Of a stretch of DNA of 37,016 bases, positions 10,406-26,107 are shown piece after piece; positions within the stretch are counted from its first letter, which is position 1; every line of letters begins with the position of its first letter. The translations under genes and the position numbers were made by a program. The notes under the pieces were generated by a model. The model was given only the letters and a program-made list of their open reading frames with translations. It did not search any database and was not told the origin of the DNA. Origin of the DNA: Microbacteriaceae bacterium PS02343 (GTDB lineage Bacteria > Actinomycetota > Actinomycetes > Actinomycetales > Microbacteriaceae); assembly GCA_029959365.1 (NCBI GenBank), contig JASCOA010000023.1, positions 1-37,016 of the forward strand. Reading direction: 5' to 3'.

Positions 10406-11925
10406 GGGCGAGCCGCCCGCAGCGGGCCGTCGACCGGACCGCGCTCCGGCAGCAGCACGGGGCGCAGGTCGGGCTCGAAGCCGTCGTCGAGGGGGAACAT
10501 CGGCCGCTCGACGTGCTCGAAGACGAGACGCGAGAAGTCGAGGTCGGTGCCGCCGGGGGTGAAGGCCATGAACTCCGATCCCGACCTCTCGCGCTGGTTC
10601 GGGAACAGGTAGCCGTTCTTGACGACGACCACGTCGTAGGGGGCGACGTCGGTGTAGGCGAGGCCGAGCATCGCGAAGGCCGGCGTGGCCGGGTCGGTGC
10701 CGCCGACGAAGCGCTGCCGGTGGCTCTGCACGCTGACGCTGATCGCGCCGTCGCGCAGCACGGCGCCCACGACGCCCTCGCCGTAGACCCCCACGATGAG
10801 CTCCTCGACCGTCCACGTCCCGCGCACGGCGGGCGCGTAGCGGTCGTCGACCACGGCGCCGATCGCGCGCTCGAGCACCCCGCCGGTACCGGCCTCCATG
10901 GCGGCGCGCAGCGTCGGCAGGTCGACGAGTCCGGCGAAGAGGAAGCGGAGGCCGGATGCGCACACGTCGTCGCGCTCGAGGGTGCGGGCGAGCGCCCAGG
11001 TGATGTCGCCCGAGCCGCCGGCGGTGACGTTGTCGCCCGCGTCGCTGAGGTAGGTGGGCCTGGGCTGCTCGGCGAGGGCGAAGTCGAGGCCCTCGTCCCA
11101 GGTGCCGGAATTCGGGCTCGTGATGCCGAAGTCGGCGCGAGCATCCCAGTACGCGCGTGCGACGCGCTCGGCGGCGACGACCAGCGACTCCGCGTCGTCG
11201 CCGGTGGCGAGCACGGCGGCGGCGTTGCGGTCCTCATCCGCCCAGGGGAATCCGCACCAGAGCCCGAGGTCCATGAGGCCGAGCTCGGTCATCGTCGGCA
11301 CGAGGCTGCCGAAGATGCTCGTGGCCGGCTCGAAGACGGTGGAGGTGCGCTCGCCGGGCAGCAGCACGGGCACGCGCACCCAGGCGCGCTGCGGCCGCAC
11401 GCCGCGGCGGATCACCTCGAGGAGGTTGGTCACCGCGCGGTCGCGGGTCTCGAGGCGGTCGATGTGCGGGGCGTGGCGGTAGACGGCGACCACGTCGACG
11501 AGCGAGGCGAGCTCCTCGGAGAAGTTGCCGTGCGGGTCCATCGACATGCCGAGCACCGCGCCGTCGCCGACGATCTCGCGCACCATGCCCACGAAGCGCT
11601 CCTCGGCACGGCCCCGGCCGAGCACCTTCAGGGCGCCGTGCATGTCGAGGTACACGCCGTCGACCGGTCCGGCCTCGCGCAGCTCGGCGGCGACGGTGGC
11701 GAAGACCTCGTCGTAGAAGTCGGGATCGAGCTGGCCGCCGGCGCCCGTGTGGGCCCGGGTCAGCGGCACCCACTCGACGTCGTCGACGATCGCGCCGAGC
11801 CGGCCCGACCAGTCGTAGTGCTCGAGCAGCGGATCGCCGCGCAGCACCTCGAACATGTCGCGGCGGATCACGTCGAGCGAGAAGGTGCTGCACTCGCCGT
11901 AGATGCCGCAGATCGCGATGCGCAT
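10402..11925 (-). CDS. M81 family metallopeptidase (MlrC-like), paralog E
   Basis: 507 aa, the usual length, with an N-terminal DUF1485 region (about 1-290) and the MlrC C-terminal domain (about 300-490). M81 is named after microcystinase MlrC, a zinc enzyme that cuts linearised microcystin fragments. Candidate metal-site residues visible here: Glu11 (GECSTF), His96 (LDMHGAL), Asp130 and His132 (SMDPHGNFS), His151, His154 and Asp156 (RHAPHID). Other signatures: LLPGERTST, SDAGDNVTAGGSGD, KNGYLFPNQ and FTPGGTDLD. Nothing catalytic looks lost. Last of the five tandem M81 genes; its ATG overlaps the stop of paralog D by 1 nt (TGATG) and its stop overlaps the MFS start by 4 nt. No signal peptide; cytoplasmic. 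Confidence 0.93.
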   Translation of the reverse strand: MRIAICGIYGECSTFSLDVIRRDMFEVLRGDPLLEHYDWSGRLGAIVDDVEWVPLTRAHTGAGGQLDPDFYDEVFATVAAELREAGPVDGVYLDMHGALKVLGRGRAEERFVGMVREIVGDGAVLGMSMDPHGNFSEELASLVDVVAVYRHAPHIDRLETRDRAVTNLLEVIRRGVRPQRAWVRVPVLLPGERTSTVFEPATSIFGSLVPTMTELGLMDLGLWCGFPWADEDRNAAAVLATGDDAESLVVAAERVARAYWDARADFGITSPNSGTWDEGLDFALAEQPRPTYLSDAGDNVTAGGSGDITWALARTLERDDVCASGLRFLFAGLVDLPTLRAAMEAGTGGVLERAIGAVVDDRYAPAVRGTWTVEELIVGVYGEGVVGAVLRDGAISVSVQSHRQRFVGGTDPATPAFAMLGLAYTDVAPYDVVVVKNGYLFPNQRERSGSEFMAFTPGGTDLDFSRLVFEHVERPMFPLDDGFEPDLRPVLLPERGPVDGPLRAARP

Positions 11926-13433
11926 CAGCGGGCGCCGCCGATCGTCTCGAGCACGACGGGGGTCAGATCGGGCGTGAAGCCGCTGTCGAGGGGGTGCATG
12001 GGTCGGTCGATCCTCCGGAATCCGAGGCGGTCGACGTCGAGGTCGGTGCCGCCGGGGGTGATGGCCATGAACCACGTCTGCGCGAGCTCGATCTGGCCGG
12101 GGAACAGGTAGCCGACCTTCGTGACGACCACGTCGTAGCCCTCGGGGTCGAAGAAGGTGTGGCCGGGCAGCCTGCGCCCGGTCATGGGGCCGATCACGGA
12201 CGGCGGCACGAAGTAGGCGCGGCCGGCCTGCACGAGCACGTGCACCCCGCCCGCGGCGAGCACGGCGCCCGTGACGCCCTCGCCCCCGTAGAGCCCCTCG
12301 ACGAGGCGCACGACCTCCCACTCCCGCTCGACCGGTGCGGCGAAGCGGTCGTCGACGCGGGCGCCGACGGCGAGGCGGATGCGCGAGCCGAGCCCCGCAT
12401 CCGTCGCCGCCGAGAGCGCGGCCGCGTCGGTGAGCCCGGCGAAGAGGATGCGCAGGCCGGATGCGGTCACGTCCTCCCGCGCGAGCGTCTCGGCGAGGGC
12501 GTAGGTCGTGTCGCCGGTGGCGCCGGCCGTCACGTTGTCGCCGGAGTCGGAGATCCAGAGCTGCCCGTCCGGGCGCTCGAGCGCCAGGTCGAGCGCCTCG
12601 GCCCAGGTGCCGGAGCGCTCGGCGACGACGACGAACCCGTCGCGCGCCGCCCAGTAGGTCTCGGCCAGATGCGCCGCCGCCGCGACGGCCTGATGCTCGT
12701 CGTAGGCGGTGACCATGACGGCGGCGCCGTTGCGGTCCTCATCCGCCCAGAAGAAGCCGACCCACATGCTCACGTCGACGACGTCGTAGGCCTCGAGGGC
12801 CGGCAGCATCGCCCCGAAGGTGGAGCGGCCCGGCTCGACGAGGGTGGAGGTGCGCTCCCCGGGCAGCAGGATCGGCACCCGCACCCAGGCCTTGACCGGC
12901 TTGGCGCCGCGCTCGAGCACCTCGAGCAGCTTGCGCACGGCGCGCTCGCGAGTGGCCCAGGCGTCGGTGTGCGGTGCGTGCCGGAAGCACACGGCGAGGT
13001 CGACGAGGTCGGCGAGCTCGCGGGAGAAGTTGCCGTGGGTGTCCATCGACATCGAGATGACGGCCGCGTCGCCGACGGCTTCGCGGACGCCGCGCAGCAG
13101 GCGCTCCTCGGCGCGCGGCCTGTCGATCACGAAGGCGGCGCCGTGCAGGTCGATGTAGACGCCGTCGACCGGCGCCTCGGCGACCGCGGCGCGCACCCCG
13201 GCGACGAGCTCCTCGACGATCGCGTCGTAGACCCCGGTCTCGATCGCGCCGCCGGCGCCGGCGTGGGCGCGCAGCACGGGCACCCACTCGATCTCGGCGC
13301 CGCCGCTCCAGCCGGCGAGGTCGTACAGGCCGAGCAGCTCGTCGCCGCGGCGCACGTCGAAGTGGGCCAGGGTCATCCGATGCGGGGCGAAGGTGGAGTT
13401 CTCGGCGCCGAAGCCGGCGATGAGGATGCGCAT
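11925..13433 (-). CDS. M81 family metallopeptidase (MlrC-like), paralog D
   Basis: 502 aa, full length. Candidate ligands: Glu11 (AENSTF), His97 (IDLHGAA), Asp131 and His133 (SMDTHGNFS, where Pro is replaced by Thr compared with the other copies), His152, His155, Asp157 (RHAPHTD). It departs from the other paralogs in three C-terminal signatures: SDSGDNVTAGATGD instead of SDAGDNVTAGGSGD, KVGYLFPGQ instead of KNGYLF, and an insert-containing loop GLYGGEGVTG. These loops line the predicted active-site cleft, so the substrate may differ (inference). ATG at 13433 has its own GGAAGG site, 13 nt after the end of paralog C. The independent ribosome-binding site means it can be translated despite the frameshift upstream. 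Confidence 0.93.
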   Translation of the reverse strand: MRILIAGFGAENSTFAPHRMTLAHFDVRRGDELLGLYDLAGWSGGAEIEWVPVLRAHAGAGGAIETGVYDAIVEELVAGVRAAVAEAPVDGVYIDLHGAAFVIDRPRAEERLLRGVREAVGDAAVISMSMDTHGNFSRELADLVDLAVCFRHAPHTDAWATRERAVRKLLEVLERGAKPVKAWVRVPILLPGERTSTLVEPGRSTFGAMLPALEAYDVVDVSMWVGFFWADEDRNGAAVMVTAYDEHQAVAAAAHLAETYWAARDGFVVVAERSGTWAEALDLALERPDGQLWISDSGDNVTAGATGDTTYALAETLAREDVTASGLRILFAGLTDAAALSAATDAGLGSRIRLAVGARVDDRFAAPVEREWEVVRLVEGLYGGEGVTGAVLAAGGVHVLVQAGRAYFVPPSVIGPMTGRRLPGHTFFDPEGYDVVVTKVGYLFPGQIELAQTWFMAITPGGTDLDVDRLGFRRIDRPMHPLDSGFTPDLTPVVLETIGGAR

Positions 13434-13446: not shown

Positions 13447-14963
13447 TCAGGGCTGGTGGTCGAGGAGGACGGGCGTCAGGTCGACGGCCGCGTCGCGGTC
13501 GAACGGGAACATCGGCCGCTGGAGGCGGTCGTAGCCGAGCCGGTCCATGTCGAGGTCGGTCGGGCCGGGGGTGATGGCGAGGAAGCGCGAACCGGCCGCC
13601 GCGGCCTGCGTGGGGAACAGGTAGCCGTTCTTGACGACGACCAAGTCGTAACCGGACGGCTCGATCCAGATGGGCGTGCGGATGAGGCCGGGCGGGTAGC
13701 CGGGGTCGCCGGGCGCCACGAAGGGGGTGCGCGCCGCCTGCACGATCACGTCGACCGGCCCCTCGAGCAGGGCGGCCGCCGGTGCGTCCTCGGGGCCGAT
13801 GAGGCGCGCGACGGTCCACTCCCCGGGCACCGGCCCGGCGAAGCGGGCGTCGTCGCCCGCGCCGAGGGCGGCGCGGAACGACCCGCCGATGCCGAGCGAG
13901 GCCGCGAGCCGTACGGCGGCGGGGTCGGTGAGCCCGGCGACGAGCGCACGGCGATCGCCGAGCTCGGCGGAGCGCTCCACGAGCGCGCCGAGCGCCACGG
14001 TCAGGTCACCGGAGCCGCCGGCCGTGACGTTGTCGCCCGCGTCGCTGATCAGCAGCGGGGCTCCGCCCGGTGCCGCGGCGAGCGCCGCGTCGATGGCCTG
14101 GTCGATGGTTCCGGCCGCGTCGACCACGAGATCGAAGCGCTCGCGGGCGTCCCAGTAGCCGCGGGCGACGCGCTCGGCGCACCGGAGGGCGTCGTCCGCA
14201 TCCCAGCCCACCGCGACCGCGGTGCCATGGCAGCGGGCCTCGTCGGCCCACGCGAAGCCCATGAACAGGGCCGCGTCGAGCACGTCGTGCTCGGCGATCG
14301 CCGGCTCGACGGCGCCGAAGACGGTCGCGCCCGGCTCGACGTCGGTCGAGGTGCGCTCCCCCGGCAGCAGCACGGGCACGCGCACCCAGGCGGTGACGGG
14401 GCGCTCTCCGCGATCGAGCACGGCCAGCAGGTTGCGCACGGCCCGCTCGCGCGAGCGTGCGTTGTCGGTGTGCGGCGAGAACCGGTGGCAGGTCATGAGG
14501 TCGAGCAGGCCGGCCAGCTCGCGGGACATGTTGCCGTGCGGGTCCATCGACGCCGAGAGCACGGCCTCGGGCCCCACCACCTCCCGCACGAGGCGCACCA
14601 GCTGCTCCTCGGCACCGTCCTGACCGAGCACCGCCGCGGCGCCGTGGATGGGCAGGTAGACGCCGTCGACCGGCCCGGCCGCGGTGAGCACCTCGCGGAT
14701 CTCGTCGAGCACGCGCCGCCAGAAGACCGGGTCGATCGGCGCGGAGGCGGTGCGCTGGGCGTGCAGCACGGGCACCCACTCGACCGGCCTCGAGCGGTCG
14801 GCGAGCCACGCCTCGTGCCGCCATTCCCCGACGAAGTTGTCGACGAGCTCGCGGCCGCGCAGGATCGTGAAGTCCTCCTCGCGGGGAGGTGCTGCGCGAA
14901 GGTGCTCGCCTCGAGGTGCAGCCCGACGATGGCGATGCGCAGGGCGCCCGGCCGGTCAGCCAC
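13447..14963 (-). pseudogene. M81 family metallopeptidase (MlrC-like), paralog C, frameshifted
   Basis: The reading frame begins with a GTG at 14963 (8-nt overlap with paralog B) and codes for RIAIVGLHLEASTFAQHLP, then runs out of frame. The rest of the protein, from REEDFTILRG on, is in the -1 frame and is intact to the stop at 13447. Adding one C to the CCCC run (plus-strand GGGG at 14883-14886) would restore LPREEDF, aligning exactly with STEEDF of paralog B and giving a 505-aa protein. The downstream frame has no start before the GTG at 14775. Later sequence is well preserved (SMDPHGNMS, LLPGERTST, SDAGDNVTAGGSGD), so this is either a very recent mutation or a sequencing error. It is the most divergent copy at one site: RFSPHTD instead of RHAPH, losing the first His of that motif, and PIHGAA instead of DxHGA. 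Confidence 0.8.
14883..14886 (-). other. Frameshift site in M81 paralog C
   Basis: Run of four G on the plus strand (CTCCCCG on the coding strand). One extra base here makes the gene continuous. The sequence is not a canonical X-XXY-YYZ slippery heptamer, so an indel is more likely than programmed frameshifting. Confidence 0.75.
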
Positions 14964-16449
14964 GGCTGGGCAGCACGACCGGGGTCAGGTCCGCCGCGAA
15001 GCCCGTGTCGAGCGGGTAGATCGGCCGCTGCACCTTCTCGAAGGGCAGGCGCGAGAAGTCGAGATCGGTGCCGCCGGGCGTGAAGGCCATGAACTCGGTC
15101 GCGGCCAGGGCGCTCTGACCCGGGAACATGTAGCCGTTCTTCGTGACGACCACGTCCCATCCGCTCATGTCGAACCAGACCTGGCCCGGTCGGCCGAAGG
15201 CGGTCGGGTCGGTGGGGTCGGTGAACTTGAAGCGCGCGCTGTGCACCGCCACGTGGATGCCGTGGCCGGCGAGCACGGCGCCGACGACGCCCTCGCCGAA
15301 CTTGCCCTCGACGAGCTGCTCGACCGTCCAGGGGCCGGCGACCGGGCCGCCGAAGCGGGCATCGACGCCGGCGCCGACGCCGATCTCGAGCACCGAGCCG
15401 ACGCCGGCGGCGCGTGCAGCCTCGACCGCGGCCGGGTCGATGAGCTGCCCGAAGAGGATGCGCGTGCCTGTGGCCAGCACGTCCGCCCGCGCGATCGTCT
15501 CGTGGATGGCGAAGGTCACGTCGCCGGAGCCGCCCGCCGTCACGTTGTCGCCGGCGTCGGCGATCCAGACCTGCGGCTGCGGGCCCGTGAGGAGCAGGTC
15601 CATGGCCTCGGACCACTGCCCCGAGTGCCCGGTGACGATGACGAAGCCCTCGCGGGCGTCCCAGAACCCCTGCGCGAGCTCGCGGGCCGTGGCGGTGATC
15701 GCCGCCTCGTCGTGACCCGTGACGAGCACGGCGCCCGCGTTGCGGTCCTCGTCGGCCCAGGCGAAGCCGACCCAGATGCTCGCGTCGAGCACGCCCTCGC
15801 GCTCGGCCGCGTCGCCCGCCGCCAGGAAGACGCTCGCGCCCGGCTCGGTGATGGTCGAGGTGCGCTCGCCCGGCAGCAGCACGGGCACGCGCACCCACGC
15901 CTTGAGCGGCTTCTCGCCCTGCTGCAGCACCGTCACGAGGTTGCGGATGGAGCGCTCGCGGGTGGCCTGGTTGTCGAGGTGCGGCGCGTGGCGGTGCGCG
16001 GTGGCGAGGTCGACGAGGCCGGCCAGCTCGCGGGAGAAGTTGCCGTGCGGGTCCATCGACATGGACAGCACCGCGTCCGGGCCGACGGCCTCGCGGATGG
16101 CGCCGATGAAGTCCTCCTCGTCGTGATCGCGGCCCTCGGTGTGCGAGGCGCCGTGCCAGTCGAGGTAGACGCCGTCGAGCGGCGCCTCGGCGTGCGCGGC
16201 GGCCAGACCGTCGACGATCTCGCGCACGAAGGCGTCCATGGTCGCGGGGGCGATCGGGCCGCCCGCGCCGCCGATGGCGCGCATGATCGGCACCCACTCG
16301 ATGCCCTCGGCGTCGGCGCCGAGGATGCGCTCGAAGTCGTAGCGGGCGAGCATCGCCTCGCCGCGGGTGACGGTGAAGTCCTCCTCGGTCGACACGAGCT
16401 CGGTGAACATGCTGGCTTCCAGGGCGTAGCCGGCGATCGCGATGCGCAC
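14956..16449 (-). CDS. M81 family metallopeptidase (MlrC-like), paralog B
   Basis: 497 aa. Starts with GTG at 16449, supported by AGAGGA 7 nt upstream, 12 nt after paralog A. Candidate metal residues: Glu11 (LEASMF, Met where the others have Thr), His99 (LDWHGAS), Asp133 and His135 (SMDPHGNFS), His154, His157 and Asp159 (RHAPHLD). The residue before the conserved His is Trp rather than Met/Leu, and the signature SDAGDN has become ADAGDN. Other motifs (LLPGERTST, KNGYMFPGQ, FTPGGTDLD) are intact. Its C-terminal loop SARFKFTDPTDPTAFGRPGQ differs strongly from the equivalent loops in the other copies, which hints at a different binding pocket (inference). It lacks a signal peptide. Confidence 0.93.
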   Translation of the reverse strand: MRIAIAGYALEASMFTELVSTEEDFTVTRGEAMLARYDFERILGADAEGIEWVPIMRAIGGAGGPIAPATMDAFVREIVDGLAAAHAEAPLDGVYLDWHGASHTEGRDHDEEDFIGAIREAVGPDAVLSMSMDPHGNFSRELAGLVDLATAHRHAPHLDNQATRERSIRNLVTVLQQGEKPLKAWVRVPVLLPGERTSTITEPGASVFLAAGDAAEREGVLDASIWVGFAWADEDRNAGAVLVTGHDEAAITATARELAQGFWDAREGFVIVTGHSGQWSEAMDLLLTGPQPQVWIADAGDNVTAGGSGDVTFAIHETIARADVLATGTRILFGQLIDPAAVEAARAAGVGSVLEIGVGAGVDARFGGPVAGPWTVEQLVEGKFGEGVVGAVLAGHGIHVAVHSARFKFTDPTDPTAFGRPGQVWFDMSGWDVVVTKNGYMFPGQSALAATEFMAFTPGGTDLDFSRLPFEKVQRPIYPLDTGFAADLTPVVLPSRG

Positions 16450-16461: not shown

Positions 16462-17970
16462 TCAGTGGGTGATGACGGGGGCTGCGGTGAGCAGCACGGG
16501 CTCGAGGTCGGGCTCGAAGCTGTCGTCGAGCGGCCAGATCGGCCGCCCGGCGCGGCGGTAGTCGAGTCGGCCGTAGTCGAGATCGGTGCCGCCCGGGGTG
16601 ATGCCCATGAAGAAGCTGCCGGCGGCGAGCGCCTGGCCGGTGAAGAGGTAGCCGTTCTTGACGACGACCACGTCGTAGCCGCTCGGGTCGAACCAGGCGA
16701 GGCCCGGCATCGGGTAGCCGGCGAAGGCCGGGTCGGCGGTGGAGACGAAGTAGCGGCGGGCCCACTGCACCGAGACGGTGACGTGGCCGTCGCGCAGCAC
16801 GGCGGCGACCGGGCGGTCCTCGCCGTGGACGCCCTCGATGAAGCGCTCGACCGTCCAGCACCCGGCGACCGGGCCGGCGTAGCGGCGGTCGACGACGGCA
16901 CCGATCCGGCGCTCGAGCACGGCGCCGACGCCCGCGGCGAGCGCCGCGTCGAAGGTCGGCGCGTCGACGAGGCCGGCGAAGAGGAAGGACCTGCCGCTGG
17001 TGCGCACGTCGTCGCGCGCGAGGGTCTCGCCGAGCGCGACGGTGAGGTCGCCGGAGCCGCCCGCGGAGACGTTGTCGCCCGCATCGCTGAGGTAGACCGG
17101 GGTGGCGGCGCCTTCCAGCACGAAGTCGAGCGCCCGCTGCCATGGGCCGTGGTGCTCGGCGACGATCCGGAAGCCCTCGTGAGCGGCCCAGTAGGCCTCC
17201 GCCAGCTCGCGGGCGCAGGCCAGCACATCCGACTCGTCCCAGCCGGTGACGAGCACCGCGGCGGCGTTCCGCGGCTCGTCGGCCCAGGCGAAGCCGATCC
17301 ACATGTTGGCGTCGAGCACGCCCTCGTAGCGCTCGATGGCCGGGATCATCCGGCCGAAGACGCTGCGGCCAGGCTCGACTTCGGTACTCGTACGCTCCCC
17401 CGGCAGCAGCAGGGGCACGCGCACCCAGGCCTTGGTGGGGGCGACGCCGCGGCGGATCACCTCGACGAGGTTGCGCACGCTGCGCTCGCGGGTCTGCCAG
17501 CGATCGAGGTGCGGTGCCTGTCGGTGCGCGGCGGCCAGCTCGACCATGCCGGCGAGCTCGCGGGAGAGGTTGCCGTGCGGGTCCATCGACATCGACATCG
17601 GCACCCACTCGCCGACGACGGCGCGCACCGCGCCGACGAAGCGCTCCTCGGCGGCATCGCGCCCCTCGACGGCCATGGCGCCGTGCATGTGCAGGTAGAC
17701 GCCGTCCCACGGGCCCTCGGCGGCGAGCCAGTCGAGGATCTCCGCCTCGAGCACGTCGTAGGCCGCGGCGTCCACCGGGCCGCCGGCGTTGACCGTGGCG
17801 ACCAGGCCGGGCACGAACTCGACGTCGGCGGGGAGGTCGGCGAAGCGCTCGGCCCAGTCGTACATGGCGAGCACCTCCTCCCCGCGGGTGAGGCTGAAGC
17901 GCTCGAGCGGTGAGCGGTCCATCGTGAAGGTGGAGGTCTCCGTCGCGATGCCGACGATCGCGATGCGCAT
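16462..17970 (-). CDS. M81 family metallopeptidase (MlrC-like), paralog A
   Basis: 502 aa and the first M81 gene in transcription order. Its ATG (17970) overlaps the M24 gene's stop by 1 nt. Candidate metal residues: Glu11 (TETSTF), His96 (LHMHGAM), Asp130 and His132 (SMDPHGNLS), His154 and Asp156 (RQAPHLD). The first His of the RHAPH motif is Gln here, as it is Phe in paralog C; only the second His is shared by all five copies, so it is the likelier ligand. C-terminal signatures: SDAGDNVSAGGSGD (Ser for Thr), KNGYLFTGQ (Thr for Pro) and ITPGGTDLD. It is otherwise complete. Confidence 0.93.
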   Translation of the reverse strand: MRIAIVGIATETSTFTMDRSPLERFSLTRGEEVLAMYDWAERFADLPADVEFVPGLVATVNAGGPVDAAAYDVLEAEILDWLAAEGPWDGVYLHMHGAMAVEGRDAAEERFVGAVRAVVGEWVPMSMSMDPHGNLSRELAGMVELAAAHRQAPHLDRWQTRERSVRNLVEVIRRGVAPTKAWVRVPLLLPGERTSTEVEPGRSVFGRMIPAIERYEGVLDANMWIGFAWADEPRNAAAVLVTGWDESDVLACARELAEAYWAAHEGFRIVAEHHGPWQRALDFVLEGAATPVYLSDAGDNVSAGGSGDLTVALGETLARDDVRTSGRSFLFAGLVDAPTFDAALAAGVGAVLERRIGAVVDRRYAGPVAGCWTVERFIEGVHGEDRPVAAVLRDGHVTVSVQWARRYFVSTADPAFAGYPMPGLAWFDPSGYDVVVVKNGYLFTGQALAAGSFFMGITPGGTDLDYGRLDYRRAGRPIWPLDDSFEPDLEPVLLTAAPVITH

Positions 17971-19349
17971 CAGCGCGTCTTCCGCATGGCGAGGTTCGGG
18001 GCGAGCCAGAAGGGCGCCAGCCAGCCGATCGTGTTCGACAGCGGCAGCACCTCCTCGTGCAGCGTGATGCCGAAGACGTCCTGCAGCATGGCGCGGCGCG
18101 CCTGGATGCGCTGCCACGCCTCGGGGTAGCGCTCGGCGAAGGCGGCGCGCAGCTCGGCGTCGGCGAGCGCGATGCCGTCCTCGATCTGCGAGTTCTGGTA
18201 CTCCGCCGGGCCGGGGATGATGTCGAGCTGGATGGCGTTGCCCGACTGGAAGACGACCTCCGAGCCCTCCTTCACCGGCGACATCGGCCATTCGTCGAGG
18301 TGGATGAAGTGACCCGGGTTGAGGAAGACGTTGTAGAAGGCGTCGCCGATGCGGCTCGCGGTGACGTCGTAGAGCTCGCCGGCGGTGAGGCCGATGCGGA
18401 TCGTCTCGAGCCAGGCCGCGGCCGTGGCGTAGTAGGGCGCCACGATCCTCTCGACGTAGTCGCGCTCGGCCTCGGGCAGCTCCTCGGCGGAGGCCACGAG
18501 GTAGCCGGCGCGGGCGGTGTTGCTGCCCCAGTAGCCGAGGCCGGCGCACACGCGGTCGCCGCGCTCGATGACGCGGCTGCCGGGGCTGGCGACGCCGTAC
18601 TTCGTGTTGACCGGGCCCGAGAGCATCGTGGGGTGGTAGTTGAAGGGCATCATGACCGGTGCCATGAGCGCCGAGGCCTCGAGCTCGGTGAGGCCCGGGC
18701 GGATGCCGTGCTGCAGACGGCGCACCGCCTGCGATCCGTGCGAGGCGGCGAACTCGAAGACGGCGATCTGGTCGACGTCGTTGACGATGCGCAGGCCGAC
18801 CTGCGGGTCGACCATCAGGTCGCCCGCGTTCTCGACGGAGTCGGCGACCTCGGCGAGGGAGGCGACGATGAAGTGCGGCACGTCCATCCATCCCTCGGTG
18901 CCCGCGCCCGAGAAGACCTTCCAGCCGACGACGCCCACGCGGCCCGCGACGCCGGCGGCGCGCAGCTGCTCGACGAGGCCGAGGTCGTCGGGGTCGGGCT
19001 GACCGTTGAGGCTGAACTTCGACTGGCGGATCACGTCGATCGGGTACGGCGTGCCCGACGCGTAGGCGACCGACTCGTTGCCGACCAGGATCGTGGGGAT
19101 GCGGCCCGGAGCGACGATCATGAGCGACTCCTCGTACCGGGGGTCGAAGCCGGTGAGGAACTGGGTGTTGGCGAAGTGCTCGCGGTCGCCGTAGACGGCG
19201 ACAGCGTCGTAGCCGCGGTCGGTGGCGGCTGCGAGCAGCGCCTCGACGCGGGCCGCGTAGGTCGCGGCGGGGATGCTCGGCTTCTCGCGCGGAAGCTCGA
19301 ACTCCGGCAGGTCGATCTCGGCGAGCTCGACGCCCCAGGTGCTGCTCAT
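17970..19349 (-). CDS. M24-fold aminopeptidase/creatinase-like protein with atypical active site
   Basis: 459 aa with a creatinase-type N-terminal domain (about 1-190, with VAVYGDREHFANTQFLTGFD) and a pita-bread catalytic domain after it. Start at 19349 chosen for GGAG 7 nt upstream; the frame extends 20 residues further without support. In true M24 metallopeptidases the metal is held by two Asp, one His and two Glu. Here the first Asp region reads CAGLGYWGSNTARAG (no Asp), and His347 survives in NPGHFIHLDEW. The usual TIEPG is LDIIPG, and the final Glu region is QIEDGIAL. So the bimetal site is probably missing, and the enzyme may be metal-free as in creatinase, or act on C-N bonds other than Xaa-Pro. 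It sits between the substrate-binding protein and the M81 genes and overlaps paralog A by 1 nt. Confidence 0.88.
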   Translation of the reverse strand: MSSTWGVELAEIDLPEFELPREKPSIPAATYAARVEALLAAATDRGYDAVAVYGDREHFANTQFLTGFDPRYEESLMIVAPGRIPTILVGNESVAYASGTPYPIDVIRQSKFSLNGQPDPDDLGLVEQLRAAGVAGRVGVVGWKVFSGAGTEGWMDVPHFIVASLAEVADSVENAGDLMVDPQVGLRIVNDVDQIAVFEFAASHGSQAVRRLQHGIRPGLTELEASALMAPVMMPFNYHPTMLSGPVNTKYGVASPGSRVIERGDRVCAGLGYWGSNTARAGYLVASAEELPEAERDYVERIVAPYYATAAAWLETIRIGLTAGELYDVTASRIGDAFYNVFLNPGHFIHLDEWPMSPVKEGSEVVFQSGNAIQLDIIPGPAEYQNSQIEDGIALADAELRAAFAERYPEAWQRIQARRAMLQDVFGITLHEEVLPLSNTIGWLAPFWLAPNLAMRKTR

Positions 19350-19379
19350 GACTACTCCAATGCGTGATTCGTGGGTACG

Positions 19380-19436: not shown

Positions 19437-21017
19437 CTACTCGGCCGGCGCGATCTCCCAGGCGATGTCGGGCGTGGCGCTGTTGGTGTCGGCGCGCACG
19501 TTGGTGATCGTCTCCGGGTCGTAGATGAACACCTGGGCGCTGTTCACGACGCCGCCCTGCCAGGCGAGGTCGCTGTAGGCGCGGGTGAACGCGTCGGCGT
19601 AGAACTCCTGCGCGTCGGCCGGGTCGGCGGCCTGCGAGGCCGCGTCGAGCAGCTCGTTCAGCTCGGCGTCCTCGGTGACCCAGGGGTTGTACTGGTTCGC
19701 GCCGCCGTCGAAGAAGCTGCGGGCGACGATCGTGGGCGGCAGCTGGCCGTAGCCGTAGTACGCGATCGGGTAGCCCTTGGCGGTGATCTCGCTGACGGCC
19801 TGACCCGCATCCGTGAAGTTGACGAGGTTGGCGGTGACGCCGATCTCGGCCCAGTTCGCGGCGACGGCCTGCACGGTCACGTCGGAGAGCACGCTGGTCA
19901 CGTAGGCGACGTCGATGCTGAAGCCGTCGGCGTAGCCGGCCTCCTCGAGCAGCTCGCGCGCCTTCTCGGGGTCGTAGGCGAAGGCGTCCTGCGTCTCCTC
20001 GTCGAAGCCGATGGTGCCCTCGAGCGCGAGCGCGCCGCCGGGGGTGCCCCACTCGCCGTAGACGGCCTGGGCGATCGAGTCGCGGTCGATCGCGTAGTTG
20101 AGCGCCTGGCGCACCCGAACGTCGGCGAGCTCCGGGGCGAGCTCGCCGTTCCGGTCGATGTAGTTCATGCCGATGAGGCCGAACGGGATCGCCTCGACCT
20201 CGAGGCCTGCGGAGATGGCGCTCTCACCGGTCGCGGTGTCGCCGCGGAACAGGTCGGCCTGGCCGCTCTGCACCGCCTGCAGGGCCGCGGCGGTGTTCGC
20301 CACGATGTCGATCTCGATGCGGTCCCACTGGATCTTGTCCTGGTCCCAGTAGTGCTCGTTGGGCTCGTAGACGTAGCTGCTGTCGGCCACGGTCGACTCC
20401 GAGTCGAGCACGTAGGGGCCGGCGCCGTGGGTGCCGTTGAGCAGCACGCCCGGCTCGTCGAGCGCGGTCGGGTTGACGACCGAGCCGAGCAGCACGCGCT
20501 GGGTGAGCAGGCTCGGCAGCGAGGGGTTCGACTCGGCCGAGGTGATCACGACGGTGCCGTCCGCGGTGGCCTCGGCGGTGGTGCCCTCGCCCAGCCATGC
20601 GGCGCCGTTCACGCCGGTGGAGATCGCGTAGCTCAGCGACGCGGCGACGCCCTCGGCGGTCATCTCGGTGCCGTCGGAGAAGAGCACGTCCTCGCGCAGG
20701 GTCAGCTCGAGCTGCTTGGCCTCGTCGTCGATGTACTCCCACGAGGACGCGAGGTCGGGCACGAGCTCGCCGGCGCCGTCGACGCGGATCAGCGGGTCGT
20801 ACGCCAGCTCGATGAACCAGATGTTCACGGGGTCGACGTTCTGCAGGTAGGGGTCGAGGCTGACCGGCGGGGCGACGCTCACGATCGTGAGCACCTTCTC
20901 CTCGTCCGTGCCGGAGGCGCCGCCGGAGCAGGCGGTGAGGGCGAGGGCCGCCGACGCCGTGAGGGCGCCGAGGGCGAGGGCCCGGTTGCGGCGACGCCGC
21001 GCGTGGTGTGCGAACAC
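19437..21017 (-). CDS. Peptide-type ABC transporter substrate-binding lipoprotein (SBP family 5)
   Basis: 526 aa. Signal peptide with Arg-rich n-region, hydrophobic core and lipobox LTAC, predicted lipidated at Cys30, so it is tethered to the outside of the membrane. Family 5 signatures: VSLDPYLQNVDPVN, LASSWEYIDDEAKQLELTLREDVLFSDG (key part LREDVLFSDGTEMTA), DVRVRQALNYAIDRDSIAQ and YDPEKARELLEEAGY. Family 5 members bind di- and oligopeptides, nickel complexes or similar ligands and deliver them to DppBC-type permeases; the exact ligand cannot be read from sequence. GTG start at 21017 with AGGAG 7 nt upstream. A 90-nt gap before it and a hairpin after it are consistent with its being made in excess over the membrane parts. 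Confidence 0.93.
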   Translation of the reverse strand: MFAHHARRRRNRALALGALTASAALALTACSGGASGTDEEKVLTIVSVAPPVSLDPYLQNVDPVNIWFIELAYDPLIRVDGAGELVPDLASSWEYIDDEAKQLELTLREDVLFSDGTEMTAEGVAASLSYAISTGVNGAAWLGEGTTAEATADGTVVITSAESNPSLPSLLTQRVLLGSVVNPTALDEPGVLLNGTHGAGPYVLDSESTVADSSYVYEPNEHYWDQDKIQWDRIEIDIVANTAAALQAVQSGQADLFRGDTATGESAISAGLEVEAIPFGLIGMNYIDRNGELAPELADVRVRQALNYAIDRDSIAQAVYGEWGTPGGALALEGTIGFDEETQDAFAYDPEKARELLEEAGYADGFSIDVAYVTSVLSDVTVQAVAANWAEIGVTANLVNFTDAGQAVSEITAKGYPIAYYGYGQLPPTIVARSFFDGGANQYNPWVTEDAELNELLDAASQAADPADAQEFYADAFTRAYSDLAWQGGVVNSAQVFIYDPETITNVRADTNSATPDIAWEIAPAE

Positions 21018-21107: not shown

Positions 21108-21941
21108 TCAGGCGGCCGGCGCCCCGGCCGCGAGGGCGTCCCACGCCTTGCGGCGCTCGCGTTGGATGGCCGGGTCCGGGTAGGGCTCGGCCGCCAGCAG
21201 ACGGCGGGTGTACGCCTCGCGGGGCTTCGTGTAGACCTCCTCCGCGTCGCCCTGCTCGACGATCGCGCCGGCGCTCATGACGGCGATGCGCTCGGAGAGC
21301 AGGCGGACGATGGAGAGGTCGTGCGCGATGAACAGGTAGGAGACGCCGGTCTCGGCCTGGATCGAGCGGAACAGGTTGACGATCTGGGCCTGCACCGACA
21401 GGTCGAGCGCCGACACGGGCTCGTCGCAGACGACCAGCTTCGGGTTCGACATGAGCGCGCGGGCGATCGCGATGCGCTGGCGCTGGCCGCCGGAGAAGCT
21501 GCCCGGCATGCGGTCCATGGCCTGCTCGCCGAGGCCGACCTTGACGAGCAGCTCCTTCGCCCGGTCGATCGACTGCGCGCGGGTGAGGCGCTTGTTGGCG
21601 ATCATCGGCTCGATGAGGATGTCGCCGACCTTCTTCGCCTCGTTGAGCGAGGAGCGCGGGTCCTGGAAGACCACCTGCAGGTCGGCGCTGATCGCGCGGC
21701 GGCCGCTGCGGCGCAGGCGGGTGATGTCCTGGCCGTCGAAGCGGATGCGCCCGGCGGTCGGGGCGGCCAGCCCCAGGATGGCCCGCCCCACCGTCGACTT
21801 GCCGGAGCCGGACTCGCCGACCACGCCGAGGGTCTCGCCCCGGCCGATCTCGAGGTCGATGCCCCGGACGGCGGTGAACGCCTTGCGCCCGGTGCCGTAG
21901 GTGACCTCGAGGCCTTCGATGCTGAGCAGCGGCTCGCTCAC
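21108..21941 (-). CDS. Oligopeptide-type ABC transporter ATP-binding protein (DppF/OppF-like)
   Basis: 277 aa. Walker A at about residues 42-50 (GESGSGKST), Q-loop FQDPRSSLNE, signature FSGGQRQRIAIARAL, Walker B LVVCDEPVSALD and H-loop AHDLS. The QDPRSSLNE and CDEPVSALD forms are typical of the second ATPase (DppF/OppF) of peptide importers. The C-terminal oligopeptide-specific extension is present but short. It would pair with the ATPase half of the fused protein encoded just upstream. GTG start at 21941 overlaps the stop of that gene by 4 nt. Confidence 0.93.
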   Translation of the reverse strand: MSEPLLSIEGLEVTYGTGRKAFTAVRGIDLEIGRGETLGVVGESGSGKSTVGRAILGLAAPTAGRIRFDGQDITRLRRSGRRAISADLQVVFQDPRSSLNEAKKVGDILIEPMIANKRLTRAQSIDRAKELLVKVGLGEQAMDRMPGSFSGGQRQRIAIARALMSNPKLVVCDEPVSALDLSVQAQIVNLFRSIQAETGVSYLFIAHDLSIVRLLSERIAVMSAGAIVEQGDAEEVYTKPREAYTRRLLAAEPYPDPAIQRERRKAWDALAAGAPAA

Positions 21942-23743
21942 GATGCGGCTCCCGTTCCCGCGCCGGCGAGGGCGGCGCGCTCCATGCTGGGCGTGGTGAA
22001 GGTGCCGGTGATCACCGGCAGGTCCTGCCCCGGCTGCGCGCCGTGGGGGTTCGACGTGAGCAGCGCCTGCGTGTAGGGGTGCTGCGGCTCGGCGAAGATG
22101 CGCTCGGCCGTGGCCTGCTCGACGATCTCGCCCTTGTACATGACGACCACGCGGTCGCAGACGTCGGCGATCACGCCCCAGTCGTGCGTGATGATGAGCA
22201 CCGACATGCCGGTCTGCTCGCGCAGCCGCATGAGCAGCCCGAGGATGCCGGCCTGCACGGTCACGTCCAGGGCGGTGGTCGGCTCGTCCGCGACGAGCAG
22301 CTCGGGGCGGCCGGCGAGGGCGAAGGCGATCGAGACGCGCTGCGCCATGCCGCCGGAGAGCTCGTGCAGGTACTTGCGGGCCGATCCGGCAGGGTCGCGC
22401 AGCTCGACGAGGGTGAGCAGCTCGATGACGCGCTGCTGCGCGGCCTCGCCGGTGAGCCCGTCGTTGAGCTCGATCGCCTCGCGCAGCTGGTCGCCGACGC
22501 GGTGGCTCGGGCCGAGGGCGACCATGGGCTCCTGGGCGATGTAGGCGATGCGCTTGCCGCGGTACTGCGCGAGCACCGCATCCGACTGCCCGACGAGGTC
22601 CGCGCCGTCGAAGACGACCGAGCCGCCGGTGACGGCGACGCCCTCGCCGATGACCCCGAGCACGCCGAAAGCGACGGTGGTCTTGCCGGAGCCGGACTCG
22701 CCGACCAGGCCGAGGGTCTCGCCGCGGCCGATCTCGAAGGAGACGTCCTTGACGATGGGCACGATGCCGCCGGCGGAGTGGTAGCCGACCGAGAGGTCGC
22801 GCACGGCGAGCAGCGGGCCGGTGCCGGCCTCGGCGACGCGGGGGGCCTCGGTGCGACGACCGGAGGGGGTGAGCTTCGAGGTCGACCAGCCGGCGGAGAC
22901 GGAGTCGCGCAGCGAGTCGCCGATCACGCCGAGCGAGAGCGCGGTGAGGGCGATGACCGCGCCCGGGGGCACGAGCAGCCAGGGCACGCTCGTGATGACC
23001 GTGGAGGCCTCGGAGATCATGTTGCCCCAGCTGGGGTTCGGCGGCACGGTGCCGAAGCCGAGGTAGCTCAGCGAGCTCTCGACGATGAGCGCGGTGGCGC
23101 CGAAGACCGCGCCCTGCACGATGATGAGGCCGCGCGAGCGGGGCAGCACGTGGCGGAAGACGATGTAGAGCGGCGAGAGGCCGGAGACGCGGGCCGCGTC
23201 GACGAAGAGCTCGTTGCGCACCGCGATGGCGCTCGACCGCACGAGCAGCGTCATGATCGGCGACGAGAGCACCCCGAAGACGAGCATGGCCAGCCAGGTG
23301 TTGCCGCGGAAGACCGAGAGCACCACGAAGAGCACCATGATGACCGGCAGCGCGATGACGATGCTGGTGAGCGCGACCACGGCGCGGTCGGTCCACCCGC
23401 CGGAGTAGCCGGCGATGAGCCCGAGCACGAGGCCGATGCCGGTGTACGCGACGACCGCCACGGCGACGCTCGAGAGCGTGGGCCCGGCGCCGTGCATGAG
23501 GCGGGAGAGCACATCGCGGCCGAGCACGTCGGTGCCGAGCAGGTGCTCGGGGGTCGGCGTCTGCATCGCCTGCAGGATCTCCTGCTTCAGCGGATCGAAC
23601 GGGGCGACGACGTCGGCGAGCAGGGCGCCGCCGACGGCGATGACCAGCCAGGTCAGCGCCAGGATGACGGGGACGGACGGACGGCGCAGCTTGCCGGGCG
23701 CCTTGGCGGCCGCGGAGGTGCTGCTGATGACTGCGGTGCTCAT
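21938..23743 (-). CDS. Fused peptide ABC transporter permease-ATPase (DppC-DppD-like)
   Basis: 601 aa. Residues about 25-290 form a DppC-type permease: TM1 VILALTWLVIAVGGALLADV, the FDPLKQ and HLLGTDVLGRDVLSRLMHGA motifs, then five more helices with the EAA-type coupling loop FVDAARVSGLSPLYIVFRH. After a linker of about 25 residues, residues 315-601 form an ATPase: Walker A near 348-356 (GESGSGKTT), Q-loop IAQEPMVALGP, signature LSGGMAQRVS near 462, Walker B LLVADEPTTALD, H-loop THDW, and the peptide-importer C-terminus (AEPQHPYTQALL). Normally these are two genes; such C-D fusions occur in actinobacterial peptide systems. Overlaps 4 nt with both neighbours. Confidence 0.93.
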   Translation of the reverse strand: MSTAVISSTSAAAKAPGKLRRPSVPVILALTWLVIAVGGALLADVVAPFDPLKQEILQAMQTPTPEHLLGTDVLGRDVLSRLMHGAGPTLSSVAVAVVAYTGIGLVLGLIAGYSGGWTDRAVVALTSIVIALPVIMVLFVVLSVFRGNTWLAMLVFGVLSSPIMTLLVRSSAIAVRNELFVDAARVSGLSPLYIVFRHVLPRSRGLIIVQGAVFGATALIVESSLSYLGFGTVPPNPSWGNMISEASTVITSVPWLLVPPGAVIALTALSLGVIGDSLRDSVSAGWSTSKLTPSGRRTEAPRVAEAGTGPLLAVRDLSVGYHSAGGIVPIVKDVSFEIGRGETLGLVGESGSGKTTVAFGVLGVIGEGVAVTGGSVVFDGADLVGQSDAVLAQYRGKRIAYIAQEPMVALGPSHRVGDQLREAIELNDGLTGEAAQQRVIELLTLVELRDPAGSARKYLHELSGGMAQRVSIAFALAGRPELLVADEPTTALDVTVQAGILGLLMRLREQTGMSVLIITHDWGVIADVCDRVVVMYKGEIVEQATAERIFAEPQHPYTQALLTSNPHGAQPGQDLPVITGTFTTPSMERAALAGAGTGAAS

Positions 23744-24684
23744 GCGTTGGCCCTCACCTTCGGGTTGAGCAGGGTGTAGACGATGTCGGTCAGCAGGTTC
23801 ACGAGCAGGATCACGGCGGTGAAGAGCAGCACCGCGCCCTGGATGTTCGCGAGGTCGTGGTTGGTCGTGCCGCGCGCGACCATCGAGCCGAGGCCGGGGA
23901 TCGCGAAGACGGACTCGAGCGTGACCGTGCCGCCGATGTGGTTGACGAAGGTGGCGCTGATCGTCGCGAGCACGGGGATCGCCGCGTAGCGGAGGCCGTA
24001 CTTGAGGATGAGGCGGCGGCGGGGGAAGCCGTTGGCCTGCAGGAAGCGCATGAAGTCGCGGCTGAGCGCCTCGGCCATCGACTCGCGGGTCTGCTTGGCG
24101 ATGAGCGCGACGCCCGCGAAGGACATGGCGGTCACCGGCAGCACCATCCGCGAGAGGAACTCGCCGAAGTCGTCCTCCGGCGCCGTGTAGCCGACGGCGG
24201 GCAGCCAGCCGAGGGTGCCGGCGAAGAGCACGATGAGCAGCAGCGCCACCCAGAAGTTCGGCAGCGAGATGCCGAGCATGCCGATGCCGTCGAGCACCCG
24301 CGCGGCCCAGCCGCCCTTGACCGCGGCGACGACGCCGAAGGTGACGCCGATGATCGCCGAGACCAGCGCGGCGAAGGTGGCGAGCCAGAACGTGGGCCAG
24401 AAGCGCTGCTCGAGCAGGCGCGAGACGGGCTCGCCGCTGAAGAGCGAGGTGCCGAAGTCGCCGCGGAAGATGCCCGCGAGCCAGTCGAGGTACTGCTCCA
24501 GCACGGGGCGGTCGAGCCCCAGCTCCGCGTTCAACTGCGCGACCCGCTCGGGTGTGGCGTCGGGCCCGAGGATCTGCGTGGCCGCGTCGCCCGGCACGAG
24601 CGAGGCGAGCAGGAACGTCAGGATCGTCATGATGAACAGGACGGGGATGGAGACTGCGATGCGGGTCGCGATGAGTCTGATCAA
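23740..24684 (-). CDS. Peptide ABC transporter permease (DppB-like)
   Basis: 314 aa, six transmembrane helices and a large loop after TM1 (PGDAATQILGPDATPERVAQ), the DppB/OppB arrangement. The EAA coupling loop is ALSRDFMRFLQANGFPRRRL, which contacts the ATPases. It forms the membrane channel with the permease half of the next gene. The start is TTG at 24684, supported by GGAG 8 nt upstream and by the expected N-terminus (IRLIATRIAVSIPVLFI); no ATG or GTG gives a better fit. As the first gene of the 12-gene unit it sits right behind the promoter and operator. Confidence 0.93.
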   Translation of the reverse strand: MIRLIATRIAVSIPVLFIMTILTFLLASLVPGDAATQILGPDATPERVAQLNAELGLDRPVLEQYLDWLAGIFRGDFGTSLFSGEPVSRLLEQRFWPTFWLATFAALVSAIIGVTFGVVAAVKGGWAARVLDGIGMLGISLPNFWVALLLIVLFAGTLGWLPAVGYTAPEDDFGEFLSRMVLPVTAMSFAGVALIAKQTRESMAEALSRDFMRFLQANGFPRRRLILKYGLRYAAIPVLATISATFVNHIGGTVTLESVFAIPGLGSMVARGTTNHDLANIQGAVLLFTAVILLVNLLTDIVYTLLNPKVRANA

Positions 24685-24735
24685 GGGCGTTGCTCCGTGC
24701 TCGGGGAGTTCCTCGCGCCCGGTGGGGTTACCGTT

Positions 24736-24749
24736 GCGCTACGTTGCGC
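24736..24749. promoter_or_regulatory. LacI-type operator O1 at the operon promoter
   Basis: GCGCTACGTTGCGC: a 14-bp palindrome with the central CpG usual for LacI-family sites and one mismatched position. Consensus with the site at 26065-26078 is GCGCAACGTTGCGC. It covers the expected transcription start of the 12-gene unit, so binding would block initiation. Confidence 0.75.
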
Positions 24750-24752
24750 ACT

Positions 24753-24869: not shown

Positions 24870-25907
24870 TCAGTCGCGCGCGGCGAAGCGGGCGACCGTG
24901 CCGCCCTGCACCATGGCCACCGGCACGACCGCGGTGCGGGCCGGGCGCTCCACGTCGTCGAGGCGCTCCACCAGCATCGTGACCGCGGCGGCGGCCATCC
25001 GCTCGGCGGGCGTGCGCACGGTCGTGAGCCGCGGCGAGACGTAGCCGGCGGCGGGGATGTCGTCGAAGCCGACCAGCGAGAGGTCCTGCGGGATGCGCAG
25101 CCCGTAGCTCGCGGCGCTCGCCAGGATGCCCAGGGCGATCGTGTCGCTCGCCGCGAAGACGGCGCTCGGCGGCTCCGCCACCGAGAGCAGGTGCGAGAGC
25201 GCGCCCGCGCCGAAGTCCTCGCTGAAGGGACCGGCGTGCATGACCTGCCGAGCGGGGTCGATGCCGGCCTTGCCCAGCGCATCCGCCCAGCCGCGGCGGC
25301 GCTCGCGCACCGAGTGCAGATCGGCGGGTCCCGTGACGAGGCCGATGCGCTCGTGGCCCATCGCCGCCAGGTGGGCGGTGGCCTGGAAGGCGCCGGCGTA
25401 GTCGTCCACGAGCACGCTGTCGTGCACGGTGTCCTCGACGATCTCCTCGTCGATCACGACGACCGGGATGCCCGCCTCGACGGCGGCGGCCAGCGCCGGG
25501 TTGGTCGTGTGGTTGCCCGCGTAGATGAGCCCGTCGATGTCGCGCTCGAGCAGCAGCTGCACGTAGTCGTGCTCCTTGCGGGGATGGCTGAAGGTCGACC
25601 CGGTGAGCACGGAGAGGCCCTGCGTCTCGGCGGCCTCGACGATGCGCTCGGCGATCCGGCCGAAGTACATGCTGCCGATCTGCGGCACGACCAGCCCGAT
25701 CACGCCCGAGCGGGTGCCGCGGCTGCGGCGCTCGCGCCCCTGCTTGCTGTAGCCGAGCTCGTCCATGGCCGATCGCACCCGCCCCTCGGTGGCCGCCGTC
25801 AGCGAGAGCTGCCCGTTCACGAAGCGCGAGACGGTCGAGACGGAGACGCCCGCGCGCTGCGCGACCTCGTGCAGGCTCGGCGTCCTCTGTGCGGTGCGCG
25901 GCGTCAT
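24870..25907 (-). CDS. LacI-family transcriptional regulator
   Basis: 345 aa. Helix-turn-helix at about residues 11-31 (SLHEVAQRAGVSVSTVSRFV), hinge helix near residue 50 and a periplasmic-binding-protein-like sensor domain to the end (IGLVVPQIGSMYFGRI, DGLIYAGNHTTN, RIGLVTGPADLHSVRERRRG, VFAASDTIALG, LVGFDDIPAAGYVSPRLTTV). The ATG at 25907 has GGGGAG 6 nt upstream; 18 extra codons upstream are unlikely to be used. It is placed between the operon and the divergent MFS gene, each carrying a matching palindrome, so it most likely represses both and itself. The inducer is probably the imported compound or a breakdown product (inference). The residue RFVNGQLSL after the recognition helix follows the family pattern (usual RxLNG). 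Confidence 0.93.
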   Translation of the reverse strand: MTPRTAQRTPSLHEVAQRAGVSVSTVSRFVNGQLSLTAATEGRVRSAMDELGYSKQGRERRSRGTRSGVIGLVVPQIGSMYFGRIAERIVEAAETQGLSVLTGSTFSHPRKEHDYVQLLLERDIDGLIYAGNHTTNPALAAAVEAGIPVVVIDEEIVEDTVHDSVLVDDYAGAFQATAHLAAMGHERIGLVTGPADLHSVRERRRGWADALGKAGIDPARQVMHAGPFSEDFGAGALSHLLSVAEPPSAVFAASDTIALGILASAASYGLRIPQDLSLVGFDDIPAAGYVSPRLTTVRTPAERMAAAAVTMLVERLDDVERPARTAVVPVAMVQGGTVARFAARD

Positions 25908-26020
25908 CGACTCCCCCTCGGCTTGGCCCGTGCGCGGATGCTCCGCGTCACGGTAGTGCATGGCTGCCGCGCTCGTCCGCCACCGCGACGCGGTGCGCCG
26001 TCAGGCCCCCGCTGCTCGAG

Positions 26021-26058: not shown

Positions 26059-26078
26059 AACGTTGTGCAACGTTGCGC
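26059..26078. promoter_or_regulatory. LacI-type operator O2 in the regulator/MFS divergent region
   Basis: The 14-bp GTGCAACGTTGCGC (26065-26078) shares 12 of 14 positions with O1 and has a perfect inner palindrome GCAACGTTGC. An overlapping second palindrome, AACGTTG-TG-CAACGTT, lies at 26059-26074. Two overlapping sites could give tighter or cooperative binding. Located 30 nt before the MFS start and about 150 nt before the regulator start. Confidence 0.75.
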
Positions 26079-26107
26079 TACAGCTGAAGTCGAAGAGGAG
26101 ACGGATC

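Follow-up and report, generated by a model that had tools for sequence, protein, structure and literature searches.

A cross-phylum clade of M24-fold proteins that lacks the paired metal aspartates and recurs beside M81 genes

The gene at 17970..19349 on the minus strand of a 37,016-nucleotide stretch of Microbacteriaceae bacterium PS02343 DNA (contig JASCOA010000023.1; this whole stretch is termed the window) encodes an M24-like protein of 459 amino acids that, by sequence comparison, belongs to an unnamed cross-phylum clade of the M24 fold (termed the family). Both metal-binding Asp residues of M24 enzymes were found to be replaced by small or neutral residues in this family; thus, the dinuclear metal site is predicted to be gone. 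By alignment, a possible ligand is retained at three of the five metal-ligand positions, one of these as a Glu-to-Asp change. Peptidase activity is unlikely, as the Asp pair and the catalytic His are lost, and the M24-like protein is probably a non-peptidase enzyme in a degradation pathway without prior characterization. We tentatively propose, at somewhat less than even confidence, that it is a cytosolic enzyme that uses one metal or none and works alongside zinc M81 amidases on a compound that is imported, bears an amide and is perhaps sugar-like.

Fold and metal-ligand positions of the M24-like protein

Translation of the window from the ATG at 19349, with a GGAG upstream, gave the 459-residue protein. 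An AlphaFold2 (AF2) model generated from six input sequences (mean predicted local distance difference test score (pLDDT) 76.7; predicted template modeling score 0.80) was indicative of the two-domain pita-bread fold of prolidase and creatinase. Approximately 320 to 350 residues of the model aligned to prolidases (Z 19.0-23.4), creatinases (Z of at most 22.5) and the ectoine hydrolase DoeA (Z of at most 22.2), and Spt16 N-domains were also among the fold matches. For the best prolidase, creatinase and DoeA matches (Z 23.4, 22.5 and 22.2), the aligned length was 329-350 residues. The M24 fold assigned by an earlier reading of the DNA letters (the sequence-only reading) was supported by these matches. 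The scores are near ties, and on the basis of the model a prolidase-, creatinase- or DoeA-like function is not told by fold alone.

In sequence searches, the M24-like protein scored 18.2 bits with Pfam PF00557, i.e., below the gathering score of 23, a cut-off passed by five of ten scanned relatives (L004, L007, L011, L012 and L083). No significant match was obtained when the PDB was searched with this one sequence (E 0.39), and a profile reached prolidase 3q6d. The NCBIfam scan returned only MamO at E 0.06, and no match was obtained to the models of DoeA (TIGR02993) or of the dimethylsulfoniopropionate (DMSP) lyase DddP (NF043017). The PS02343 genome was found to carry one copy of the M24-like gene and five other M24-domain proteins above the Pfam cut-off. 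Comparison of 369 codons with the 91% identical partial gene of locus L001 revealed purifying selection (synonymous divergence dS 0.356, nonsynonymous divergence dN 0.069, dN/dS about 0.2). An open reading frame of 436 amino acids on the plus strand (18057-19367) was rejected as a real gene based on its low-complexity look (its relatives were not sought) and on the presence of homologues of the minus-strand protein in five phyla.

Metal-ligand positions were assigned by a HMMER profile aligned to Bacillus anthracis prolidase 3q6d, by MAFFT alignment with canonical M24 enzymes, creatinase and DoeA, and by hhalign comparison to ten canonical M24 enzymes (99.3%, E 2e-20). The three methods concurred in placing the first metal Asp at G270 (codon at 18540..18542, this and all following codons on the minus strand), the His ligand at H347 (18309..18311), the Glu of the TIEPG motif at D376 (18222..18224) and the last Glu ligand at E390 (18180..18182). 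The second metal Asp was placed at N277 (18519..18521) by MAFFT and hhalign; the HMMER alignment has the hairpin of this Asp out of register. In the AF2 model and in a second model, of a Chloroflexota member (pLDDT 71.3), D376 and E390 sit on two consecutive strands. An alternative alignment of the PG of LDIIPG (residues 375-380) with the PG of TIEPG was ruled out, as all three methods place D376 on the Glu.

Conservation was counted in 38 family rows including the window protein, i.e., 32 rows and six more, with the N-terminus of L105 cut by hand. Position 270 was never acidic (A in 20 rows, T in 11, G in five, S in one and N in one), nor was position 277 (L in 32 and N in six). The segment CAGLGYWGSNTARAG (residues 268-282) contains no Asp. 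With these two positions non-acidic in all rows, the sequence and profile alignments do not reveal the acids at all five ligand positions that the sequence-only reading had named, for a structure-based alignment, as its refutation. These results bear out what had been read from the letters, namely the absence of Asp from the segment of the two metal Asp residues and the presence of LDIIPG in place of TIEPG. The further claim that only His347 clearly remains was incorrect, since D376 and E390 occupy the positions of the TIEPG Glu and the last Glu ligand and, like H347, E353 (18291..18293) and R280 of the DxTR motif (18510..18512), are present in 38/38 rows. H347, D376 and E390 are among only 27 of 459 positions that are invariant in the family. 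In a normal M24 enzyme, the ligands are divided between two metal sites, and these three positions correspond to three of the four ligands of site 1.

Additional residues distinguish the family. The catalytic His that precedes the GD motif was detected in 14/14 canonical enzymes, and is V, L, N, T or M in the 25 family rows of the alignment with the same letters found in 38/38. The position of H361 (aminopeptidase P residue name), a His in 14/15 canonical enzymes, is Trp354 in 25/25 family rows. The acid E353, which marks the clade, was found in only 3/15 canonical enzymes vs. 38/38 family rows. In the N-domain, D55, E57, R71, E73 and E74 (motif of residues 55-74, 19128..19187) were present in 36/36 rows with letters at these positions, two rows being partial. 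For the 25-row alignment and tree, seven of the 32 rows (L001, L071, L072, L076, L078, L081 and L086) were dropped as partial or as having a spurious long N-terminus, and the partial sequences L101/L108 and L069/L082 were kept out of alignments. M24_L019, a methionine aminopeptidase-type protein, was omitted from the tree and creatinase-residue comparison and counted as canonical elsewhere (hence 15 vs. 14); M24_L047 was excluded from the canonical counts, and M24_L051 was counted as DoeA-like.

Taken together, the features that the family shares with prolidase and aminopeptidase P (M24B) are the predicted two-domain fold, the LTGF motif of the N-domain, the GD...R motif, the His ligand and the last Glu ligand. 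By contrast to these peptidases, the family has lost both Asp residues and the catalytic His, Trp354 takes the place of the second His, and the third acid is Asp instead of Glu.

Sister group and relationship to other M24-fold enzymes

In a tree of 50 rows, the 25 family rows and six M24-like proteins were joined with a support of 99/97 and stood apart from creatinase, DoeA and the canonical M24 enzymes. The tree program flagged long branches, two of the six sister rows among them, as well as the joining of creatinase to another long row. The sister group (L029, L030, L031, L034, L035 and L038) comes from a different group within the phylum of the window and was related to the family by hhalign (99.5%, E 3.9e-23). 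Its proteins are 387-417 amino acids in length, the two that were scanned score 94 and 127 bits with Pfam M24, and they are without the R71/E74/E57 loop of the family. All six, by alignment, lack both Asp residues and have the His, E353, an Asp in place of the TIEPG Glu, and the last Glu. Since the sister group has the same pattern, the Asp-for-Glu change and the loss of the Asp pair likely predate the family.

Similarities to non-peptidase enzymes of the fold were also detected. The DoeA/EutD ectoine hydrolase (6twj, 6twk) shares with the family the fold and the loss of most ligands, and is a non-peptidase hydrolase. In DoeA-like rows, the first Asp position is occupied by Glu and the His ligand is replaced by Tyr, and the family has the reverse (A, T, G, S or N at the first position and the His kept). 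DddP (4b28) uses the same fold non-hydrolytically. This lyase keeps the dinuclear metal site, with the ligand set intact (PMC4108388), by contrast to the family in which the set is lost.

M81 enzymes encoded beside the M24-like gene

M81 enzymes are known mainly from the breakdown of microcystin. Five M81 paralogues, 49-56% identical to one another and all with PF07364 and PF07171 domains, are encoded in the window downstream of the M24-like gene on the minus strand. The stop codon of the M24-like gene overlaps the start of the first (TGATG, 17968..17972). The paralogues are at 16462..17970 (1), 14956..16449 (2), 13447..14963 (3), 11925..13433 (4) and 10402..11925 (5), with the start of paralogue 5 overlapping the stop of paralogue 4. 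Residues E4, H89, D123, H125 and H147 (numbered from residue 8 of paralogue 1) were invariant in at least 12 of 13 M81 rows with letters. The H-D-H-H spacing of 34, 2 and 22 is that of MlrC, and the E-H spacing is 85 vs. 94 in MlrC. For MlrC, the zinc residues are given as E, H, D, H and H (PMC12474180). By alignment, the window M81 proteins appear to have these zinc-site residues. Paralogue 3 is interrupted by a frameshift in its first 27 codons or so (14880-14963, minus strand), with its N-terminal motif in one frame, the rest in another and its first residues missing in frame; it is possibly a pseudogene, an assembly error or a case of recoding.

The pairing of M81 and M24-like genes, which had been noticed in the sequence-only reading, recurs in other genomes. 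Of 28 genomes with an M24-like gene that were scanned for PF07364 (21 + 7), nine were found to have M81 genes. In four of these nine, M81 is beside the M24-like gene: all five M81 genes in PS02343, 3/3 in G143, 1/1 in G351, and 4/5 within about 7 kb in G865, the fifth being ~16 kb away. When chance was estimated as M81 count × 20 kb / genome size with PS02343 left out, ~0.12 of eight genomes were expected to have an M81 neighbor vs. three observed. The nearest relative, L001 (91%), has the M24-like gene, three M81 genes (without paralogues 3 and 1) and an MFS gene. On a Pantoea plasmid (L010), M81 is directly upstream of the M24-like gene; no annotated M81 was found within 10-12 kb of it at the other nine annotated plasmid loci, for which annotation is incomplete. 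The M81 pairing is real.

Gene cluster of the window

The minus-strand gene order in the window is LacI, DppB, permease-ATPase fusion, ATPase, SBP5, M24-like, five M81 and MFS. The LacI-family regulator is encoded at 24870..25961, and its homologues are 51-57% identical and near the M24-like gene in L002, L003 and L106. The ATP-binding cassette (ABC) transporter genes include a DppB-type permease (23740..24684), a protein of 601 amino acids in which a DppC-type permease is fused to an ABC ATPase (21938..23743; the same fusion is found in L106), an ABC ATPase (21108..21940, start approximate) and a solute-binding protein with a lipobox (SBP_bac_5, of the peptide/nickel/opine type; 19437..21017). 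An MFS transporter gene (9218..10405) follows the M81 genes, as in L001 and L106.

Candidate LacI-type operators were searched for as palindromes close to TGCGCAACGTTGCGCA in the gaps around the LacI gene. Two were detected in the window, one at 24735..24750 with one mismatch to a perfect palindrome and one at 26064..26079, upstream of the LacI gene, with two mismatches; as many were found in 6 of 100 shuffles. A candidate with three mismatches at 9449-9464 in L106 was matched by 21 of 200 shuffles that yielded one, and none was found by this search in L002. Between the LacI and DppB genes, an inverted repeat of 17 bp with perfectly matched arms and a loop of 4 bases (24820-24857) is possibly a terminator that separates the regulator from the operon. 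Apart from these genes, a tandem array of a 19-base unit in 7.5 copies (1916-2056) has long open reading frames of repeated peptides on both strands.

Gene neighborhoods and distribution of the family

The fullest repeat of the window cluster was found at locus L106 (genome G865), from the same bacterial family but another genus. This locus includes Dpp permeases and ATPases (68-76% identical), SBP5 (56%), M81, LacI (57%), the M24-like gene (63%), M81, MFS (47%) and two further M81 genes, with a xylose-isomerase-like TIM barrel (PF01261), an NAD-dependent epimerase (PF01370) and a Gfo/Idh/MocA oxidoreductase as extras. An Agrobacterium locus (L009) has Gfo/Idh, TIM-barrel, M20 and alpha-glucosidase genes with a sugar ABC transporter. 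The G143 locus has its three M81 genes with a GH1 glycosidase, a phosphotransferase system (PTS) permease and, as judged from the start of its sequence, a DeoR-like gene. At two loci of the sister group, L093 and L095, the M24-like gene has LacI, Gfo/Idh, M20 and cyclase genes beside it, and other sister-group loci have some of these genes or those of sugar ABC transporters. Of ten annotated plasmid loci, five (L007, L009, L010, L014 and L015) have genes for sugar transport or glycosidases close by, and in L008 and L011 such genes are farther away, at about 10 and 4 kb. Amide- or deaminase-type neighbors in relatives include M20, the arginine deiminase family and asparaginase II. By BLAST with a few seeds, Gfo/Idh homologues were found at 8/22 and 1/7 family loci and at 4/7 sister-group loci. 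The Rahnella and Enterococcus loci have no evident operon partner downstream of the M24-like gene.

At E ≤1e-40, family matches were found in 5/394 genomes of the class of the window (PS02343 included) and in 5/65 genomes of the bacterial family to which G143 belongs; at E ≤1e-20, in 13/301 genomes of the phylum of an Anaerolineaceae relative, the genome of that relative included; and at E 0.001, in two of 59 near relatives, PS02343 included. In a phylum-wide draw, 37/296 genomes passed E 0.001, only four of which (PS02343 included) had strong family matches, the rest being other M24 proteins. Family matches were also present in 64 of 72,556 plasmid records, with hosts that include Halomontanus, Agrobacterium, Rhizobium, Shinella, Microvirga, Pantoea, Rahnella, Niallia and Enterococcus. 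Among viral contigs, 22 pattern matches were obtained, none related to the M24-like protein. The M24-like gene is thus rare and patchy in the sampled genomes, as are horizontally moved catabolic genes. Existing database labels on clade members are Xaa-Pro aminopeptidase and M24 family metallopeptidase. In our literature search, neither this clade nor the M24-M81 pairing was found in the titles and abstracts returned, subscription papers not being covered.

Discussion

An active enzyme is favored over a dead one based on the invariant polar residues, the dN/dS of about 0.2 and the overlap of the M24-like gene with an M81 gene. The neighbors of this gene, i.e., M81, M20, asparaginase II and arginine deiminase family genes together with redox enzymes and importers of the sugar type, suggest that the substrate is a sugar-like compound with an amide or amino group. 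In a more specific form of our proposal, which is possible but held with greater doubt, the invariant H-E-D-E set of the family (mononuclear or metal-free) would have replaced the dinuclear site, the family would carry out a new reaction, either at a C-N bond or an elimination, on a sugar-like compound that bears an amide, and it would be coupled to several M81 zinc amidases in a LacI-controlled import operon. In the main proposal, the small molecule would enter through the Dpp-type ABC transporter (in relatives, through sugar ABC transporters or a PTS), the LacI-type protein would sense it, the M24-like enzyme would break its C-N bond (or another bond), and the M81 zinc amidases would act on the same compound or its products. 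H347, D376 and E390 may hold one metal or serve directly as acid/base residues.

The N-domain loop (D55, E57, R71, E73 and E74) may also form part of the pocket, for which two precedents can be cited. In creatinase, the N-domain of the partner chain approaches the active site. In the DddP dimer, the second chain does so (PMC4108388).

Several observations weigh against the proposed enzyme on an imported amide-bearing compound. The window transporter is of the peptide/nickel/opine type and not the sugar type. No annotated sugar importer or amidase is next door in L012, L013 or L016, and neither was found in L109-L111 by BLAST with seed proteins. The Gfo/Idh family is abundant, and its counts of 8/22 and 1/7 stand without a background rate. 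As to the M81 enzymes, 19 of the 28 carriers had no PF07364 match, and in five of the nine genomes with M81 (G353, G490, G613, G646 and G879) the genes are on other contigs, with 0/9 adjoining the M24-like gene, some of these assemblies being fragmented. Finally, the AF2 model is weak precisely at the pocket, with pLDDT <50 at residues 239-241, 244-254, 336-357 and 379-387, and the Chloroflexota model was no better there; the pocket loops rank with the poorest parts of both models.

Among the alternatives, a lyase or isomerase that reuses the fold as DddP does is unlikely yet survives best. Such an enzyme would act on a sugar-like acid or keto-sugar formed by the Gfo/Idh and TIM-barrel neighbors, both of which are near the M24-like gene in L106 and L009. 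The enzyme families of the levoglucosan route offer a point of comparison. This route is known to proceed by oxidation, elimination, hydration and reduction (PMC7676230), and elimination is possible with the M24 fold, as exemplified by DddP (PMC4108388). However, DddP has all of the metal ligands and the family does not, and the amide-type neighbors (M81, M20 and asparaginase) suit C-N chemistry equally well.

Still less probable is a non-catalytic role as a ligand-binding sensor or scaffold. Spt16 and Ebp1 are non-catalytic relatives of the fold, and the loss of two Asp residues and the catalytic His, with Spt16 N-domains among the fold matches, would fit a similar role for the M24-like protein. 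The gene order in sub-family 2 can be read likewise: in L011, L012 and L015, the M24-like gene comes immediately after a gene of the cyclic-nucleotide-binding, DeoR or LacI type, and ribH separates it from an upstream Crp/Fnr gene in L013. By contrast, the invariance of the remaining His, acids and R280 in 38 rows from five phyla would be unusual for a dead pocket, and the gene is inside catabolic operons at several loci, with its stop overlapping an M81 start in the window.

A metal-free hydrolase that works like creatinase on a guanidino or ureido compound, as suggested by the sequence-only reading, is improbable. Creatinase (1chm, 1kp0 and 7yto) is similar to the family in fold, and a Shinella creatinase (L090) that matches these structures and adjoins a creatininase gene has likewise lost both metal Asp residues (N and A at these positions), with H324 and E358 kept at the next two ligand positions and H376 at the last. 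The only guanidino-type hint among the loci is a gene of the arginine deiminase family (9837-10853) in Shinella L008, which lies among LacI and ABC genes and precedes the M24-like gene by two genes. The residues with catalytic roles in creatinase are H232, E262, R335, H376, H324, E358 and R64. When these were looked for, as the sequence-only reading had advised, only H324 was found to be kept in the family, with an Asp at the position of E358; H232 is V, L, N, T or M, E262 is A, S or C, H376 is Glu, R335 falls in a segment that the family is without, and R64 aligns to the invariant Glu73, this loop alignment being uncertain. The family instead has E353, E390 and its N-domain acids. Common descent is made less probable by the tree, which sets the two apart; the approximately unbiased test gave p 0.044 when the family and creatinase were constrained together and p 0.12 when the sister group was included. 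By hhalign, the match to creatinase was not significant, a comparison that carries little weight with two rows only. No creatininase, sarcosine oxidase or urease family match was obtained among the scanned window neighbors, the rest of the window not having been scanned for these. Of the non-peptide C-N hydrolase originally suggested, a probable non-peptidase is retained and the guanidino or ureido substrate is left unsupported.

An ordinary dinuclear M24 peptidase with its Asp ligands supplied by other acids after a register shift is very improbable: D265 and D352/E353 are near the relevant strands and the pocket is poorly modeled, but D265 falls on the Asp of the usual GD motif, an Asp found in canonical enzymes in addition to their ligands, MAFFT and hhalign give one register, and the catalytic His and H361 positions are lost as well.

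The peptidase labels of this clade are probably misleading, and its signature (no Asp pair, then H...E...D...E) would allow their correction. If the chemistry of the M24-like protein is new, it would join creatinase, DoeA and DddP as a further case in which the pita-bread fold has been reused, and the operon would offer a way to approach the natural substrates of the M81 enzymes.

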